Positions 2,866 through 21,499 of a stretch of DNA of 52,206 nucleotides are shown one piece after another (position 1 is the first letter of the stretch; each line of letters begins with the position of its first letter). The stretch comes from Cytophagales bacterium (GTDB lineage Bacteria; Bacteroidota; Bacteroidia; Cytophagales; Cyclobacteriaceae): NCBI GenBank assembly GCA_020403045.1, contig JADBYK010000024.1, positions 1-52,206 of the forward strand. Direction: 5' to 3'. A model generated the notes under the pieces. The model saw nothing but the letters and a program-made list of their open reading frames with translations, had not been told where the DNA came from and searched no databases. Position numbers and translations under genes: made by a program.

Positions 2866-2967
2866 CCCACTACGAGTCTGATATGACTGTAGGAGTCATC
2901 AGACTTGACCGAAATGCGATGCGTTTTGCGTCAATCGTAGGCAAATTTTGCTACCGCAAAATTTGGG
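2866..2967. repeat. Candidate 102-bp palindrome-rich mini-element (CCCA...TGGG ends)
   Basis: This segment starts with CCCA after TTAA and ends with TGGG before TTGAA, the same end pattern as the neighbouring 226-bp element. Inside is an interrupted stem (arms about 2875-2888 and 2894-2905, two-base bulge). A second, perfect 10-bp stem runs CAAATTTTGC at 2942-2951, loop TACC, partner 2956-2965. No long coding frame is credible. The boundaries are inferred from end similarity only; no second copy exists in this window, so its mobility is unproven. Confidence 0.4.
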
Positions 2968-2998
2968 TTGAATTTCATCGTCAAGCAATTCTTTTAAA

Positions 2999-3224
2999 CC
3001 CAAACTATGCATTAGGAATGCATAGTTTGCCCATGGGGTTGACGATCTGCCTGAGGCGGATGTCAAGGTTAAACCTCGTGACGCTTTCGGTCAGAGTCAG
3101 ACATTTATCGTCTGACCTGACAATGAAAATTACCAACTTGGTTTTCTTACTTGGGGCTAAATCGTTGATTTTCATACGTCAATTATGCAATGCTGACAGT
3201 ACCGTCAGCATTGCATAATCTGGG
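2999..3224 (+). mobile_element. Hairpin-rich MITE-like element, copy 1
   Basis: A 226-bp non-coding element about 95% identical to copy 2 at 13676-13900, differing by ten substitutions and one indel. TTAAA flanks both ends (2994-2998 and 3225-3229), consistent with a target duplication. The ends are imperfect inverted repeats: CCCAAACTATGCA against CCCAGATTATGCA when the right end is reversed, 11 of 13 matching. Most of it folds. P1 is a 13-bp stem with loop AGG (3001-3029). P2 is a short stem with loop TGA near 3046-3062. P3 is a stem around 3100-3131. P5 is a perfect 16-bp stem with loop AGTACC (3182-3219). No transposase is present, so it would need to be mobilised in trans. Confidence 0.85.
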
Positions 3225-3283
3225 TTAAATATTTGGACGGTTGCGAGTTTTATATTGTGCAAAATTACCGACCACGTCAAGGT

Positions 3284-8010: not shown

Positions 8011-11000
8011 ATGATTGACAAACTAATCATATTCAGCGTTCGTAATAAGTTGTTTGTCGGCTTAATGGTGTTGGCGCTGATAGCGTGGGGAAGTTTTTCG
8101 CTTTCTAAACTGCCCATCGATGCTGTACCTGATGTTACCGGCAATCAGGTGGATGTGATTACCAATAGCCCAAGCCTGGCGGCTTTGGAAATAGAGCGTT
8201 TTATTACAGCACCACTTGAAATGTCATTGTCAAATATCCCTGGGCTGTTGGAAATGCGCTCGGTGTCAAAGTTTGGTTTGTCGGTAGTGAAACTCGTCTT
8301 TGATGATGATACTGACGTGTACTGGGCGAGGCAACAAGTGTTTGAACGGCTGGAGTTAGTAAAAGCCGAAATTCCGCAAGAACTGGGTAAGCCGTATATG
8401 GGACCTGCCTCAACTGGTCTTGGTGAAGTTTTTCAATATGTCATTAGGCCAAAAGACCCGAAAGACAAATCGTTCTCATTGATGGAGATACGCACCCTCC
8501 AAGACTGGACTATCCGCAGGCAATTATTAGGTATCAAAGGTATTGCAGAGGTGAGTGGTTTTGGTGGCTATAAAAAGGAATACCAGGTTACACTCAATCC
8601 TGAGCGGATGCGCGCATTGAACGTCACCATTGATGATTTATTTGAAGCACTAAGTACAGGCAACAGCAATACAGGCGGTGCCTACATTGAGAAAGATAAT
8701 AAAGCCTTTACCATTCGGGGTATTGGGCTTGCGACCACACTGGAAGAGATTGGCAACACCGTGATAAAAGTAAATAAGCGTGTTCCGATCTTAGTAAAAG
8801 ATGTGGCGGACGTCAACTTTGGCCACAGCATTCGCTATGGCGCCATCACGGTCAATGGCGAAGGAGAAGCCGTAGGTGGAATCATCATGATGGTGAAGGG
8901 CGAGAACGGAAGTGCAGTCATTAAGCGAATTAAGGATCGGATGAAGATCATTCAGGCTCGCTTACCGGAAGGATTGGTGATAGAGCCCTTCATTGATCGC
9001 TCCAAAATTGTTTCCAAGGCTATAACAACGGTCGGCACCAACTTGGTTGAGGGAGCCTTAATAGTAGTGTTGGTGATTTTGGTATTCCTAGGAAATTGGC
9101 GAGCCAGTTTATTGGCTGCATCTGTTATTCCATTGTCAATGCTTTTTGCCTTTGTGTTGATGCGACAGTTTGATGTAGTGGGTAACCTGATGAGCCTTGG
9201 CGCGATTGATTTCGGTTTGCTGGTCGATCCTTCGATTATTGTGGTGGAGGCAGTGGTTTTTTATTTAGCATATGAGTTGGGCAAGCACCCTTCAGGGGAA
9301 GGGATGTCGCAATTGGAAAAAGAGAAAATAGTAATCAAGGCTACGCAAGATTCCAAAAAATCGGTTGTGTTTGGCGGGTTGATTATTTTGATCGTGTACT
9401 TCCCCATCTTAACGCTCACAGGCATTGAAGGTAAAATGTTTGGCCCAATGGCTAAGACGGTAAGTTTTGCCATTTTGGGCGCCATTATTTTGGCGCTCAC
9501 CTATGTACCCATGTTGGCCTCTGTTATTTTGGAGTCGCCAAAGTCTGCGGATCATCATGGCCCTTCCGAAGTTATTGTACAATTCATGTTTCGGTTGTAT
9601 GAACCGATCATTCGGTTTGGTCTTAAGGCCCGCCATCTAATCGTGGTGATTGCTTTTGGTATTTTGATTTCAGGCTTTGTTGCCTTTCGATTTATTGGAG
9701 GTGAGTTTATACCCAAGTTGGCCGAGGGTGATTTGGTGATTGAAACAAACTTGCCGGTTGGTACTTCCATGAACGAGACAATTGACCTCAGTCAAAAGAT
9801 TCAGAAAATGTTGTTGGATGCCTATCCGGATGAAATTGAAAGGATCGTTTCCAAGATAGGAACTTCAGAAGTGCCCGTGGACCCGATGCCGATGGAGGCA
9901 CAAGAAATAGTGGTAGTGTTAACCGACAAAAAGCAATGGACGAAGGCACACGATCAGGAAGAGTTGGTCGTGCAAATCGCAAAAATGCTGGAACAGTTCC
10001 CCGGGATCGTTAACTCTATCCAACAGCCCATTGAAAACAGAGTGAACGAACTAATGAGCGGTGCGCGCACAGACGTGGTGGTAAAACTTTTTGGAGCCAA
10101 TCTGGATACCATGGTGGTGAAGGGCAATCAAATTATTAAGCTAATTAAAGGCGTAGACGGAGCTGCGGATGTGCAGGAAAATAAAATTTTTGGTCTGCCT
10201 CAGATAAATATTAAATACGACCGGAGAGCCATGGCAACGTATGGTGTTACGGTTACTCAAATAAACAGATCGATTCAAACAGCTTTTGCCGGTGCCATTG
10301 CTGGTATTGTGTATGAAAACGACAAACGATTTGATCTGGCCTTGCGCCTGGCCGGTGACGAGCGTGCAAAGGCTGAGAACATTCGCAACCTGATTATTAC
10401 CGACAAAGATGAGAACCCCATTCCACTCAAAGAGTTGGCTGATATCACCGAGGAGATTGGCCCATCAGAAATCGGACATGAAAACCTGCAACGAAGAATG
10501 AACATCGGCTTTAACGTGCGGGGGCGTGATCTTGAATCAGTCGTGAATGACGCGATGAAAGCAATCAATTCAAAAGTTATTTTGCCAGCCGGTTATAGTG
10601 TTGATTTCGGTGGTGAATTTGAAAATTTTAGAAGAGCCAAAGCACGGTTGGCGATTGTAGTACCCCTTTCCCTTCTGATCATTTTCGGATTACTTTTTGC
10701 CACATTTGGCAATGTGAAAGACAGCCTATTAATTTATTCGGTCGTACCACTTTCCGCTGTGGGTGGAGTATTTTCATTGTTATTTAGAGGAATGAATTTT
10801 AGCATATCGGCAGGTGTGGGTTTTATTGCCTTATTTGGAATTGCGGTGTTGAACGGAATTCTTATCATCAGTCGTTTTAATGAGCTGGAAAAAGAAGGGA
10901 TTACGGATGTTCATCAGCGAGTGCTTCAGGGGCTGCGTGGAAGATTTCGTCCTGTGTTGATGACCTCGGCTGTAGCCGCTTTGGGTTTTTTGCCAATGGC

Positions 11001-12354
11001 CCTTTCTACCAGTGCTGGCGCAGAAGTTCAAAAACCTTTGGCAACGGTAGTTATTGGTGGTTTGTTTACGGCAACTATTTTGACATTACTCATTCTACCG
11101 GTGATCTATACTTATTTTGTGAAACAGCCAAAGGAAAAATCCGGTAATTGGACTCCCGAGGTGACCGCACTAATCATACTATTGTTCTTATCGTCTCAGG
11201 CTATCGCACAGCCGGCACAAAAGCCCATCGGTTTGGATAGTGCCGTGGCCATGGCAAAAAAGAGAAATCCTGAGATGCTATTGGCGCAGCAGCGGATCGA
11301 GCAACAGGTGGCACTCAAGCCGGCATCTTTTAGTTTGTCTACCCCCGATTTAGTTTTTGAAGCACCAACGGGCGATGACTTACGGCCTGGCTTACTGCAG
11401 GTAATTGATTACCCTGGCGTTTACACAGCGCAAGGAAGAGCGCAGAGAAGTAAAATTGCTGTAACAGAAACAGAACTGAAAATTTCCGCCAACAACATTG
11501 TGTATCGCGTTCGGGTTTCGTACAACCAGTTACAGTATTTGATTGAGCGGACACGGCTGCTGTACAGCCAAGATTCTGTATTTGACGATTTGATAAAAGT
11601 GAATGAAATACGGTATCGAGTGGGACAAATCTCAGCACTGGAGAAACTCAACGGAGTTTCGCAATACAAAAGAATTCAATACGCATTGAAAGTAGCTCGC
11701 TCAGAATTGAGAAATGCCAAGTATCAATTTAATCTATTGCTTGGCCAGCCAAACGACACAACACATATCCCCGCAGATGTATTACGAAAAAATAGCTTGA
11801 TCGTTGATATCACACGTGTTGATACGGCCTACACGATGGGTAACCCCTTGTTAGCTTTCAGTAGGCAACAACAAAACTACAGCCTCAACCAGCTCAAAGT
11901 AGAGAGAAGAAAAAGAATTCCGGGAGCTGTAGTTGGTTTCTTAAATCAGGGGACACCTCAAACACCGATCACTCCTCGCCTTAGGCTGGGTATTACATTG
12001 CCTATTTGGCAATGGACTTACCAGGCAAATATCAATGCTGCCAAAAAGGGAATTCAGATAGCGGAGACACAAAAGAGAATTACTTCATTTCAGTTGAATA
12101 CTGAGTACGCAAAGGCACAAGCGGATTACCGTCAATTTCAGGATAACCTGGCTTATTTCGAAACGACTGGTTTGCCCGAAGCTGCAGAAATCCTGAGAAA
12201 TTCGAAAGAAAGTTTTCGACTGGGGAGCATTAATTATTACCAGTACTTGCAAAACCTCGAGCTCGCTTATTCACTTCGTCAAAATTATTTAGAAACGTTG
12301 CGAAATTACAATCAATCAATCATCACGCTCACCTATTTGAAAGGTGACTATTAA
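8011..12354 (+). CDS. CzcA/CusA-family heavy-metal RND pump fused to TolC-like outer-membrane factor
   Basis: A 1447-residue protein. Residues 1 to about 1045 are a complete heavy-metal-efflux RND pump, with a first transmembrane helix near 10-30 and large periplasmic loops. TM4 reads AIDFGLLVDPSIIVVEA, which supplies the proton-relay acids Asp400, Asp406 and Glu413. Residues about 1067-1447 are a TolC-like outer-membrane factor made of long coiled helices. Between them, residues 1051-1066 form a hydrophobic segment ending SQAIA before QPAQ, which looks like a type I signal peptide. Such CzcA-TolC fusions are known in Bacteroidota. The adaptor gene follows 15 bases downstream. The expected role is export of divalent or monovalent heavy metals using the proton gradient; the metal cannot be assigned. 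The usual Gly after Asp406 is replaced by Pro-Ser. Confidence 0.92.
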   Translation: MIDKLIIFSVRNKLFVGLMVLALIAWGSFSLSKLPIDAVPDVTGNQVDVITNSPSLAALEIERFITAPLEMSLSNIPGLLEMRSVSKFGLSVVKLVFDDDTDVYWARQQVFERLELVKAEIPQELGKPYMGPASTGLGEVFQYVIRPKDPKDKSFSLMEIRTLQDWTIRRQLLGIKGIAEVSGFGGYKKEYQVTLNPERMRALNVTIDDLFEALSTGNSNTGGAYIEKDNKAFTIRGIGLATTLEEIGNTVIKVNKRVPILVKDVADVNFGHSIRYGAITVNGEGEAVGGIIMMVKGENGSAVIKRIKDRMKIIQARLPEGLVIEPFIDRSKIVSKAITTVGTNLVEGALIVVLVILVFLGNWRASLLAASVIPLSMLFAFVLMRQFDVVGNLMSLGAIDFGLLVDPSIIVVEAVVFYLAYELGKHPSGEGMSQLEKEKIVIKATQDSKKSVVFGGLIILIVYFPILTLTGIEGKMFGPMAKTVSFAILGAIILALTYVPMLASVILESPKSADHHGPSEVIVQFMFRLYEPIIRFGLKARHLIVVIAFGILISGFVAFRFIGGEFIPKLAEGDLVIETNLPVGTSMNETIDLSQKIQKMLLDAYPDEIERIVSKIGTSEVPVDPMPMEAQEIVVVLTDKKQWTKAHDQEELVVQIAKMLEQFPGIVNSIQQPIENRVNELMSGARTDVVVKLFGANLDTMVVKGNQIIKLIKGVDGAADVQENKIFGLPQINIKYDRRAMATYGVTVTQINRSIQTAFAGAIAGIVYENDKRFDLALRLAGDERAKAENIRNLIITDKDENPIPLKELADITEEIGPSEIGHENLQRRMNIGFNVRGRDLESVVNDAMKAINSKVILPAGYSVDFGGEFENFRRAKARLAIVVPLSLLIIFGLLFATFGNVKDSLLIYSVVPLSAVGGVFSLLFRGMNFSISAGVGFIALFGIAVLNGILIISRFNELEKEGITDVHQRVLQGLRGRFRPVLMTSAVAALGFLPMALSTSAGAEVQKPLATVVIGGLFTATILTLLILPVIYTYFVKQPKEKSGNWTPEVTALIILLFLSSQAIAQPAQKPIGLDSAVAMAKKRNPEMLLAQQRIEQQVALKPASFSLSTPDLVFEAPTGDDLRPGLLQVIDYPGVYTAQGRAQRSKIAVTETELKISANNIVYRVRVSYNQLQYLIERTRLLYSQDSVFDDLIKVNEIRYRVGQISALEKLNGVSQYKRIQYALKVARSELRNAKYQFNLLLGQPNDTTHIPADVLRKNSLIVDITRVDTAYTMGNPLLAFSRQQQNYSLNQLKVERRKRIPGAVVGFLNQGTPQTPITPRLRLGITLPIWQWTYQANINAAKKGIQIAETQKRITSFQLNTEYAKAQADYRQFQDNLAYFETTGLPEAAEILRNSKESFRLGSINYYQYLQNLELAYSLRQNYLETLRNYNQSIITLTYLKGDY

Positions 12355-13576: not shown

Positions 13577-14671
13577 CTATTTTATACCGACTGTCGCAAT
13601 TCTAAAAATCTCGACACACTTTCGATCCTGCATGGTAACATAGCAGGTCTTCCCATCGGGGCCGCCAAAATTTAACCCAAACTATGCATTCCTAATGCAT
13701 AGTTTGCCCAGGGGGTTGACGATCCGCCTGAGGCGGATGTCAAGGTTAAACCTCGTGACGCTTGCGGTCAGAGTCAGACATTTATCGTCTGACCTGACAA
13801 TGAAAATCACCAACTTGGTTTTCTTACTCGGGGCTAAATCGTTGATTTTCATTCGTCAATTATGCAATGCTGACAGTACCGTCAGCATTGAATAATCTGG
13901 ATTTAAATTACTGGGTTTCATCCCCCTCATGTTTACCTCGTGTAAAATTTCGCCTTTCGGGGAAAAAATGGCTACGGTGCCTTTGCCATGACGAGTAACA
14001 TATAGATTTCCCTCAAGGTCACACTTCATTCCATCCAAACCAAAATCATCGAAAGAGGCAAAAAGTGTTTGGTTACTTACTTCGCCTTTGGCGTTAACAT
14101 CAAACATCCATATTTTTCGTTGAGCACTTTCGTTCACATAGAGAGTGTTTTCGTTGGGACTGAGCGCGATGCCATTGGTGGTGCCCATATTTTCTTTCAG
14201 CAAAACCGAACTGCCATCCACTTCAATGCGCCATAGTTTACCCGTTCCCTCCTTCCAATTGGGGTCTGAGGCGAAGAGTTGCCCCTTTTTATTAATGCAG
14301 ATGTCGTTGGGTTGATTGAAGGATTCGCTATGAACAAAAACCGAAACGGTTTTTGATTTCATGTCCACTCTCAAAATGTTATGCCCTTTGAAATCAGCGA
14401 GCAGCATATGTCCTTTTTTATCAAACTGTATTGCATTCGCGATACTACCCTCGGGTAACGTTACAAATAACTCTGTAGTGCCATCCTGCTTTACCGCGCC
14501 AATGGTTCCGTTCGTTTTGTAGTTGACGACATACAAGATTCCATTTTTGAAGCAGGGGCCTTCAATATTTTCAGAAAATAAATTTTCTTTGGTAAAGTCT
14601 GATGCTTGATAAGTTTGAGCGAATGTGCTAGTAGATACAATCAGCGAAAGGAAAAGAAAAACAATTCTCAT
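13577..14671 (-). pseudogene. SMP-30/gluconolactonase-family gene split by the MITE-like element
   Basis: The remaining open frame (13856-14671) encodes 271 residues: a signal peptide (MRIVFLFLSLIVSTSTFAQ) and most of a six-bladed SMP-30/gluconolactonase propeller, with the motifs NDICI, SDPNW and TTNGIALS. The last 15 residues come from the inserted element. Beyond the insertion, the minus strand from 13669 to 13577 continues in the same frame with FGGPDGKTCYVTMQDRK and a natural TAG stop, which is the expected family C-terminus. Removing the 225-bp element and one 6-bp duplication gives a continuous 287-residue protein. The family hydrolyses sugar lactones in the periplasm; the neighbouring sugar transporter supports a sugar-use role. 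Loss of the final strand and its GGPDG loop probably weakens or abolishes folding. Confidence 0.85.
13676..13900 (+). mobile_element. Hairpin-rich MITE-like element, copy 2 (inside the SMP-30 gene)
   Basis: A 225-bp near-identical copy of the element at 2999-3224, flanked by the exact direct repeat ATTTAA (13670-13675 and 13901-13906). The first stem-loop, 13678-13706, has the loop CCT where copy 1 has AGG. The internal stem ATCCGCC-TGA-GGCGGAT is perfect here, as is an 11-bp long-range stem with arms AATGAAAATCA and TGATTTTCATT. The last hairpin has one mismatch. The short open frame across it (13695-13895) is not supported as a gene. The reading frame restored on excision proves insertion into an existing gene. 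Confidence 0.92.
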
Positions 14672-21460: not shown

Positions 21461-21499
21461 AAAAGCCCTTTGAATGCCAACATTCAAAGGGCTTTTTTT
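21461..21499 (+). terminator. Intrinsic terminator after recQ
   Basis: A perfect 16-bp stem (AAAAGCCCTTTGAATG at 21461-21476, partner 21481-21496) with the loop CCAA is followed by a T-rich end. It separates recQ from purD. Confidence 0.92.

Follow-up and report, generated by a model that had tools for sequence, protein, structure and literature searches.

Two copies of a hairpin-rich element

The window examined in this study, which is the whole 52,206-nucleotide stretch of DNA, carries two copies of a short element made largely of hairpins. Copy 1 spans positions 2999–3224 on the forward strand (226 bp) and is bordered by the target duplication TTAAA on its left (2994–2998) and right (3225–3229). 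Copy 2, on the same strand, spans positions 13676–13901 between repeats of TTTAA (13671–13675 and 13902–13906), and it carries CCT instead of AGG in the loop of its first hairpin and A instead of G as its last base. The preliminary description of this DNA reported two near-identical copies, and the regions 2994–3229 and 13671–13906, target repeats included, are indeed 94.5% identical over 236 bp by blastn. Boundaries defined by a covariance model move the end of copy 2 from 13900, as originally given, to 13901. The AT-rich target sites proposed at the same time stand for copy 1 (TTAAA), but the ATTTAA assigned to copy 2 gives way to a true repeat of TTTAA, because the apparent sixth base arises from copy 2 ending in A where other copies end in G. 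The related ends CCCAAACTATGCA and CCCAGATTATGCA are present in copies 1 and 2, and the right end of copy 1 matches the left end of copy 2 as an inverted terminal repeat at 17 of 19 bp, flank included.

Folding is much stronger in both copies than in dinucleotide shuffles: copy 1, folded as DNA, reaches z −9.0 and copy 2, folded as RNA, reaches z −8.6, and in neither case was any of 200 shuffles as good. The 16-bp stem near the 3ˊ end and the 11-bp long-range stem are present as well, the latter being perfect in copy 2 and carrying one mismatch in copy 1. The 26 complete elements of the most frequent type in the window's own genome measure 226–227 bp, and 12 copies from other genomes measure 151–225 bp. 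A mechanically called ORF of 111 amino acids crosses copy 1 (2883–3218), where an optional 41-bp module (H3, below) and the swapping of hairpin tips would break any reading frame.

A diverged element built on the same plan, here called family 2, occupies positions 2786–2967 of the forward strand and adjoins copy 1, 31 bp upstream of it. Its right end, read inwards, is CCCAAATTTTGCGGTAG, and its flanks (TTCAA and TTGAA) are not identical. A covariance model built without this element detects it with these boundaries (E = 2.4e-9), and the genome contains further relatives whose ends resemble CCCAAATTTTGCAGTAG. Between copies 1 and 2, both of family 1, the window also contains a 1447-amino-acid ORF (8011–12354) that, from inspection of its translation by eye, seems to be an RND efflux pump joined to a TolC-like outer-membrane factor.

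Hairpin anatomy and exchangeable modules

Structurally, the element forms four or five hairpins in series, and the tips of these hairpins are swapped wholesale between unrelated palindromes. In copy 1, where all hairpins lie on the forward strand, H1 (3001–3029) is composed of the 5ˊ terminal repeat and its fold-back, which pair in a 13-bp stem closed by the loop AGG, with double changes at alignment columns 5–30, 7–27 and 8–26. H2 (3039–3066) has a TTGAC...GTCAA base and an exchangeable tip, which in this copy is ATCTGCC-TGA-GGCGGAT. The optional hairpin H3 (3096–3116; GTCAGAC...GTCTGAC) is followed by the long-range hairpin H4 (3118–3181), whose consensus is TGACAATGAAAATCA...TGATTTTCATTCGTCA and which has changes in copy 1. 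The last hairpin, H5 (3182–3219), is the one with the 16-bp stem; it contains the 3ˊ terminal repeat and also has an exchangeable tip.

Among the 78 copies examined from the window's genome (G000), the tip of H2 is of the ATCCGCC type in 56, the AATACTGACGGTACCGTCAGTATT type in 14 and the AAAACATTGGTTTCCAATGTTTT type in six, with two unread. H3 is present in 52 copies, absent from 19 and unread in seven, and the 32 copies with a readable H5 include 26 with a long tip and six with a short one. These H2, H3 and H5 modules are found in several combinations. The arms of H4, by comparison, are the most conserved sequence across congeners.

In genome G010, an element (L049/L195) occupies the site orthologous to copy 1, with the same TTAAA and with 1-kb flanks that are 96.8 and 99.1% identical. 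It lacks H3 and has a short H5, so either the site received two insertions or modules were swapped once the element was in place. There are also simpler relatives, including one in genome G074 (L319) that has the same ends and equal TTTAA flanks without a terminal fold-back, as well as solo palindromes of approximately 40–50 bp. A separate 36-bp imperfect palindrome at positions 21461–21496 of the window is unmatched by the element model.

Target duplications and an empty site

Copies of the element start with CCCARAYTATGC and finish in its inverse. The 5-bp flanks are identical in 23 of the 31 copies from the window's genome for which both flanks are readable, compared with a mean of 6.0 and a maximum of 15 in 10,000 shuffles. 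This result upholds the earlier remark that the element makes target duplications, unlike usual REP elements. Flanks are unequal in the remaining eight; in one of these (L014) they become equal once a one-base deletion in the right end is allowed for, and the others possibly reflect recombination between copies or misassembly. Three solo palindromes examined in this genome (L032, L033 and L039) have unequal flanks. Over 198 bp, copy L132 (G000:C100:11248) and a G074 copy with TTTAT on both sides (L199) have left flanks that are 100% identical, but the right flank of L132 is TTCAA, a mismatch that either recombination between copies or misassembly would explain.

The left flanks of the 78 copies define the target motif WTNAW: all 78 have T as the second base and A as the fourth, and the first and fifth bases are A or T in 77 and 78 copies, respectively. 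In other genomes, flanks are identical for 38 of 75 copies (shuffle mean 5.5, maximum 13 in 5,000), and WTNAW fits the left flank in 59 and the right flank in 48 of these 75.

The insertion of copy 2 can be matched to an empty site, since genomes G010, G074 and G075 carry the uninterrupted sequence CCAAAATTTAAATTACT with flanks that are 89–94% identical. Copy 2 cuts an ORF with an SMP-30/gluconolactonase domain on the minus strand (13856–14671), and joining its flanks yields a 288-codon reading frame that spans the insertion site. Joining the flanks of the 21 insertions that have 400 bp or more on each side gave no spanning ORF of 100 codons in 17 cases. Together, the duplications, the empty site and the copy number given below support the earlier reading of a mobile, non-autonomous, hairpin-rich element.

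Copy number and distribution

The genome is represented by an assembly of 4.02 Mb in 124 contigs. A DNA search in which the best 40 of 163 candidates were scored yielded at least 101 matching pieces in this assembly. The end pattern gave 252 matches with up to two mismatches, compared with 31 for a reversed control pattern. The 5ˊ hairpin pattern, with up to three mismatches, gave 80 forward and 79 reverse matches with none for the control; because H1 is nearly palindromic, each copy is counted on both strands, and the number of copies is thus about 79. The possibility raised in the preliminary description that the genome has only the two copies in the window can accordingly be set aside, as about 79 copies bear the 5ˊ hairpin and additional partial ones exist. 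The 78 copies referred to throughout are those that are distinct and readable among the fetched loci. Many contigs of the assembly stop approximately 100–150 bp inside a copy, so many copies are visible only in part, and the element probably explains much of the fragmentation of the assembly.

The covariance model finds the element in 22 of 62 genomes of the genus, the window's own included. The number of matches is 47 in G000, 45 in G032, 30 in G074, 21 in G075, 17 in G029, 15 in G076, 14 in G002 and 12 in G012, with fewer in the rest; these figures are matches rather than copies, being derived from the best 44 candidates per genome under strict filters, and both strands of a copy may match. 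Across the order, where the best 14 candidates were scored for each genome, the model matches at least six of 194 genomes, of which four belong to this genus, one belongs to another genus of the family and one, elsewhere, matches weakly (E = 2e-4). Carriage by phages or plasmids was considered and rejected, as blastn searches of phage and plasmid collections gave no match to the element and viral contigs gave no exact match to a 28-base pattern.

Covariation and constraint in the stems

A covariance analysis of all copies was among the checks proposed at the outset, and the stems do covary. In a first alignment of 14 of the 22 copies extracted, 93.6% of cells are paired. The covariation score is 0.133 compared with 0.068 for shuffled and at most 0.044 for slid controls, and there are 32 double-changed cells compared with 11.3 for shuffled controls. 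In the same 14 copies, pairs with double changes (9 versus 6.5, reached by 30 of 500 shuffles) are not clearly above the control, and pair types (22 versus 22.3, reached by 334 of 500) are not above it. H1 is unpaired in two of the copies (from G012 and G027), and H4 is kept mainly as sequence, with nine of 15 pairs invariant and none double-changed.

In a larger alignment of 82 copies (81 distinct), 92.0% of cells are paired, 45 of 51 pairs have double changes, and double-changed cells number 424 compared with 102.8 after shuffling and at most 110 after sliding. This alignment was made to the model and so leans towards it, and the copies are related, so that the controls are not probabilities. 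It omits three duplicates, L267 (cut by a contig end), L289, L307, L309 and most G000 copies. Each terminal hairpin consists of a terminal repeat and a fold-back that covaries with it. In many G032 copies the two ends differ (CCCAGATGATGC on the left and CCCAAATCATGC on the right), as they also do in G000, and in G032 each inner arm nevertheless matches the outer arm with which it pairs.

Constraint on young copies was assessed with the 26 of 78 G000 copies that are complete and of the commonest type, which have a mean identity of 97%. Changed cells number 24 of 3068 in stems versus 73 of 2808 in loops (12 of the 73 at one site), and variable sites number 20 of 118 in stems versus 38 of 108 in loops (Fisher P = 0.002). 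The difference persists when the terminal repeats are excluded (14 of 89 stem sites, P = 0.002); of these 14 variable sites, 11 lie among the 60 of internal stems and three among the 29 of fold-back arms. The outer arms formed by the terminal repeats, taken alone, show no significant difference from loops (6 of 29 variable sites, P = 0.18). All 24 stem changes in these copies are single and uncompensated.

Older copies behave differently. In 28 copies from G032 with a mean pairwise identity of 82%, divergent cells are alike in stems (275 of 2677) and loops (206 of 1925). In this genome, both partners have changed in 30 pairs that are still Watson-Crick, a number above the expectation for independent change, although inherited subfamilies could explain this excess. 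Thus, relics decay and multiplying lineages keep their stems, a pattern that fits selection during propagation better than a function for the host.

IS1380-family transposases with matching ends

The preliminary description saw no matching transposase in the window and recommended a search of the genome for a transposase gene bounded by similar ends. A profile search of the 124 contigs with PF13701 gave a single match in the whole assembly, which lies on another contig (G000:C122) and whose frame is open, with no stops. The encoded protein (P0001) scores 267.5 bits against NF033539, the IS1380 equivalog of NCBIfam (cut-off 180), and 168.8 against PF13701 (cut-off 34.7). The gene is bounded by CCCAGATTATGCATTAGAA and by the inverse of CCCAGATTATTCATTC, the latter one base off, and its flanks, TTTAT and TTAAA, have the same target motif as the miniature elements but are unequal. 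The unequal flanks and the one-base change in an end suggest that the genome's own insertion sequence may be immobile. A known IS family with shared ends and target preference was what the preliminary description itself named as a refutation, and IS1380, whose ends in this genome are almost identical to those of the element and whose target motif agrees, is such a family. The initial suggestion of an undescribed family with no transposase is thus half right, and the lack of a known parent is not supported.

The same kind of ends is found beside IS1380 relatives in other genomes, namely L069 and L070 (47% identity) and L097–L102 (61–87% identity in the best segments). Four of these eight loci (L069, L070, L098 and L101) show the two ends, and the other four (L097, L099, L100 and L102) show one. 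A further IS1380-type subgroup, L068 (50%) and L073 (38%), has the ends CCCAGATTTTGCAGTAGAA except for one base in one L073 end, and these resemble the ends of the family 2 hairpin elements. This genome contains two IS1380-cognate families of miniature inverted-repeat transposable elements (MITEs). The IS1380 relatives that come from named records belong to metagenome-assembled genomes labelled Flammeovirgaceae, Flavobacteriaceae or Bacteroidetes. Two of them yield tblastn matches identical to those of congeners G034 and G035, which would probably place the genus in the Flammeovirgaceae.

Co-occurrence of the element and IS1380 across the genus is weak. PF13701 scores above its cut-off in seven of 62 genomes, including four of the 22 with the element and three of the 40 without it. 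The 18 element-bearing genomes with no PF13701 match over the cut-off include G032 and G002, both listed as 100% complete and with 45 and 14 element-model matches, respectively. Two genomes, G035 and G074, carry the element and only broken IS1380 genes. In genome G080, where the element model has no match, IS1380 matches number 22, most of them 51% identical to P0001.

Among the end matches listed for G032, inspection by eye revealed no other transposase between such ends. The one facing pair among them that is 0.3–6 kb apart and not a single short element (C57:29150–31086) encloses a region of about 1.9 kb that was considered as an alternative autonomous element and rejected, as its main ORF encodes a Fic-domain protein rather than a transposase. 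This gene (L312, 321–1943, minus strand) lies between two short elements.

Origin of the element and of its stems

The shared ends and target motif of the genome's own IS1380 gene and its relatives identify the elements as IS1380-cognate MITEs. Very probably, they owe their mobility to an IS1380-family DDE transposase acting in trans. Such a transposase would recognise CCCARAYTATGC-type ends, excise or copy the element and insert it at WTNAW with a 5-bp duplication, and the enzyme that moved the present copies may have been the C122 transposase or a lost close relative. The weak point of this case is that only four of the 22 element-bearing genomes have an IS1380 transposase match above the cut-off. 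A transposase from another, unrecognised family could instead mobilise the element, with the ends shared with IS1380 being an old coincidence or a capture, and both the many congeners with the element and no detectable IS1380 transposase and the reverse situation in G080 would agree with this. However, ends of approximately 15 bp together with WTNAW are common to several IS1380 relatives, the G032 copies are old, as relics would be if the insertion sequence had been lost, and the one such facing pair among the ends listed for that genome encloses the Fic-domain gene. A different transposase therefore appears highly unlikely.

A second alternative, a family of structured RNAs or regulatory palindromes kept because the RNA fold benefits the cell, would be consistent with the strong covariation across 82 copies and with the 17 of 21 insertions that interrupt no long ORF. 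It would also be consistent with an excess of G-T over A-C mismatches (145 versus 97 in the 82 copies and 57 versus 41 in G032, counted in an alignment fitted to the structure). However, the young G000 copies show no such excess (7 versus 7), copy 2 is inserted into a gene, and there is no Rfam match at gathering scores within the window. Given this negative search and the equal decay of stems and loops in old copies, a host RNA family was rejected as extremely improbable. The hairpins could also be maintained by fold-back template switching, a form of palindrome self-repair, rather than by selection, which would concern the stems and not the identity of the element as a MITE. An inverted hairpin loop may be a trace of switching inside a hairpin, and two of the 78 copies, one of them copy 2, have CCT in place of AGG as an inverted H1 loop; the double-changed pairs in G032 point in the same direction, though subfamilies could account for them. 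Against this mechanism, every stem change in the young copies is single and uncompensated, and their stems vary less than their loops even without the terminal repeats, so we consider template switching a somewhat unlikely explanation of the pairing. A role or origin of the stems in propagation fits better than a host RNA function.

For an IS1380-cognate MITE, the most likely source of the terminal hairpins is a deletion that left an IS end folded back on itself. Judging from the module combinations, internal hairpins would then have been added, with recombination or gene conversion exchanging them among copies afterwards. Probably the stems persist because poorly folded copies cease to multiply; a hairpin might, for example, offer the transposase two sites instead of one or do less harm to the host. 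More speculatively, and in our judgement unlikely, the hairpin chain might be a working part of the life cycle, with ends that are folded as cruciforms or single strands, each a terminal repeat paired with its covarying fold-back, being handled by the transposition or replication machinery, hairpins exchanged like cassettes, and an IS1380-type system that selects on DNA secondary structure. In this well-sampled MITE family, with 22 of 62 genomes of the genus and about 79 copies in a single genome, structure is kept by compensatory change in multiplying lineages and lost in relics. The family therefore makes it testable whether the hairpins of miniature elements are products of erroneous copying, aid transposition or shield the host.

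Comparison with known elements

The known part of this element is its status as an IS1380-cognate MITE, and what is unusual is its modular build, a series of interchangeable hairpins that related species have retained. The literature compared includes the accessible text of PMC3281130, PMC4133298, PMC9330008, PMC3733652, PMC10813416 and PMC3542288. Within the PMC literature searched, which excludes subscription journals and ISfinder, we found no description of this family, nor, in the text accessible there, of a modular series of covarying hairpins in which the terminal repeats fold back.

The IS1380-family genes examined here (NF033539, PF13701) are bordered by terminal repeats and a WTNAW target like those of the element. 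A 5-bp direct repeat is listed for the member IS1247 in the accessible text of PMC3281130, and the MITE copies likewise make 5-bp repeats. The MITE differs in having no transposase gene, a length below 230 bp, terminal repeats placed in hairpins and a body of several hairpins. REP/BIME elements with RAYT are also palindromic and repeated, but the present element has long inverted ends and 5-bp duplications. Target duplications are not known for REPs.

The contrast with usual IS-derived MITEs that was drawn in the preliminary description proves overstated, since MITEs folding into robust secondary structures have been described, with RUP, NEMIS, ERIC and Nezha named in the accessible part of PMC3733652. 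As described there, these are likewise small and present in high copy number, with inverted ends and strong folding, and they are non-coding, as the present element may be. Going by these descriptions, the present element appears to be set apart from them by four or five serial hairpins, wholesale exchange of tips, terminal repeats that covary with their own fold-back and a cognate IS1380. The Tn3-derived TIMEs are also miniature, and they are mobilised in trans, as the present element very probably is, but they have Tn3-type ends and transposase according to the accessible text of PMC4133298, and the present element is of IS1380 type. Finally, IS1380 is taken as the outgroup of piggyBac transposons in the portion of PMC10813416 consulted, where piggyBac ends mostly begin with CCC and the target is TTAA. 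The CCC ends and TTNAA targets of the element would fit such a kinship.
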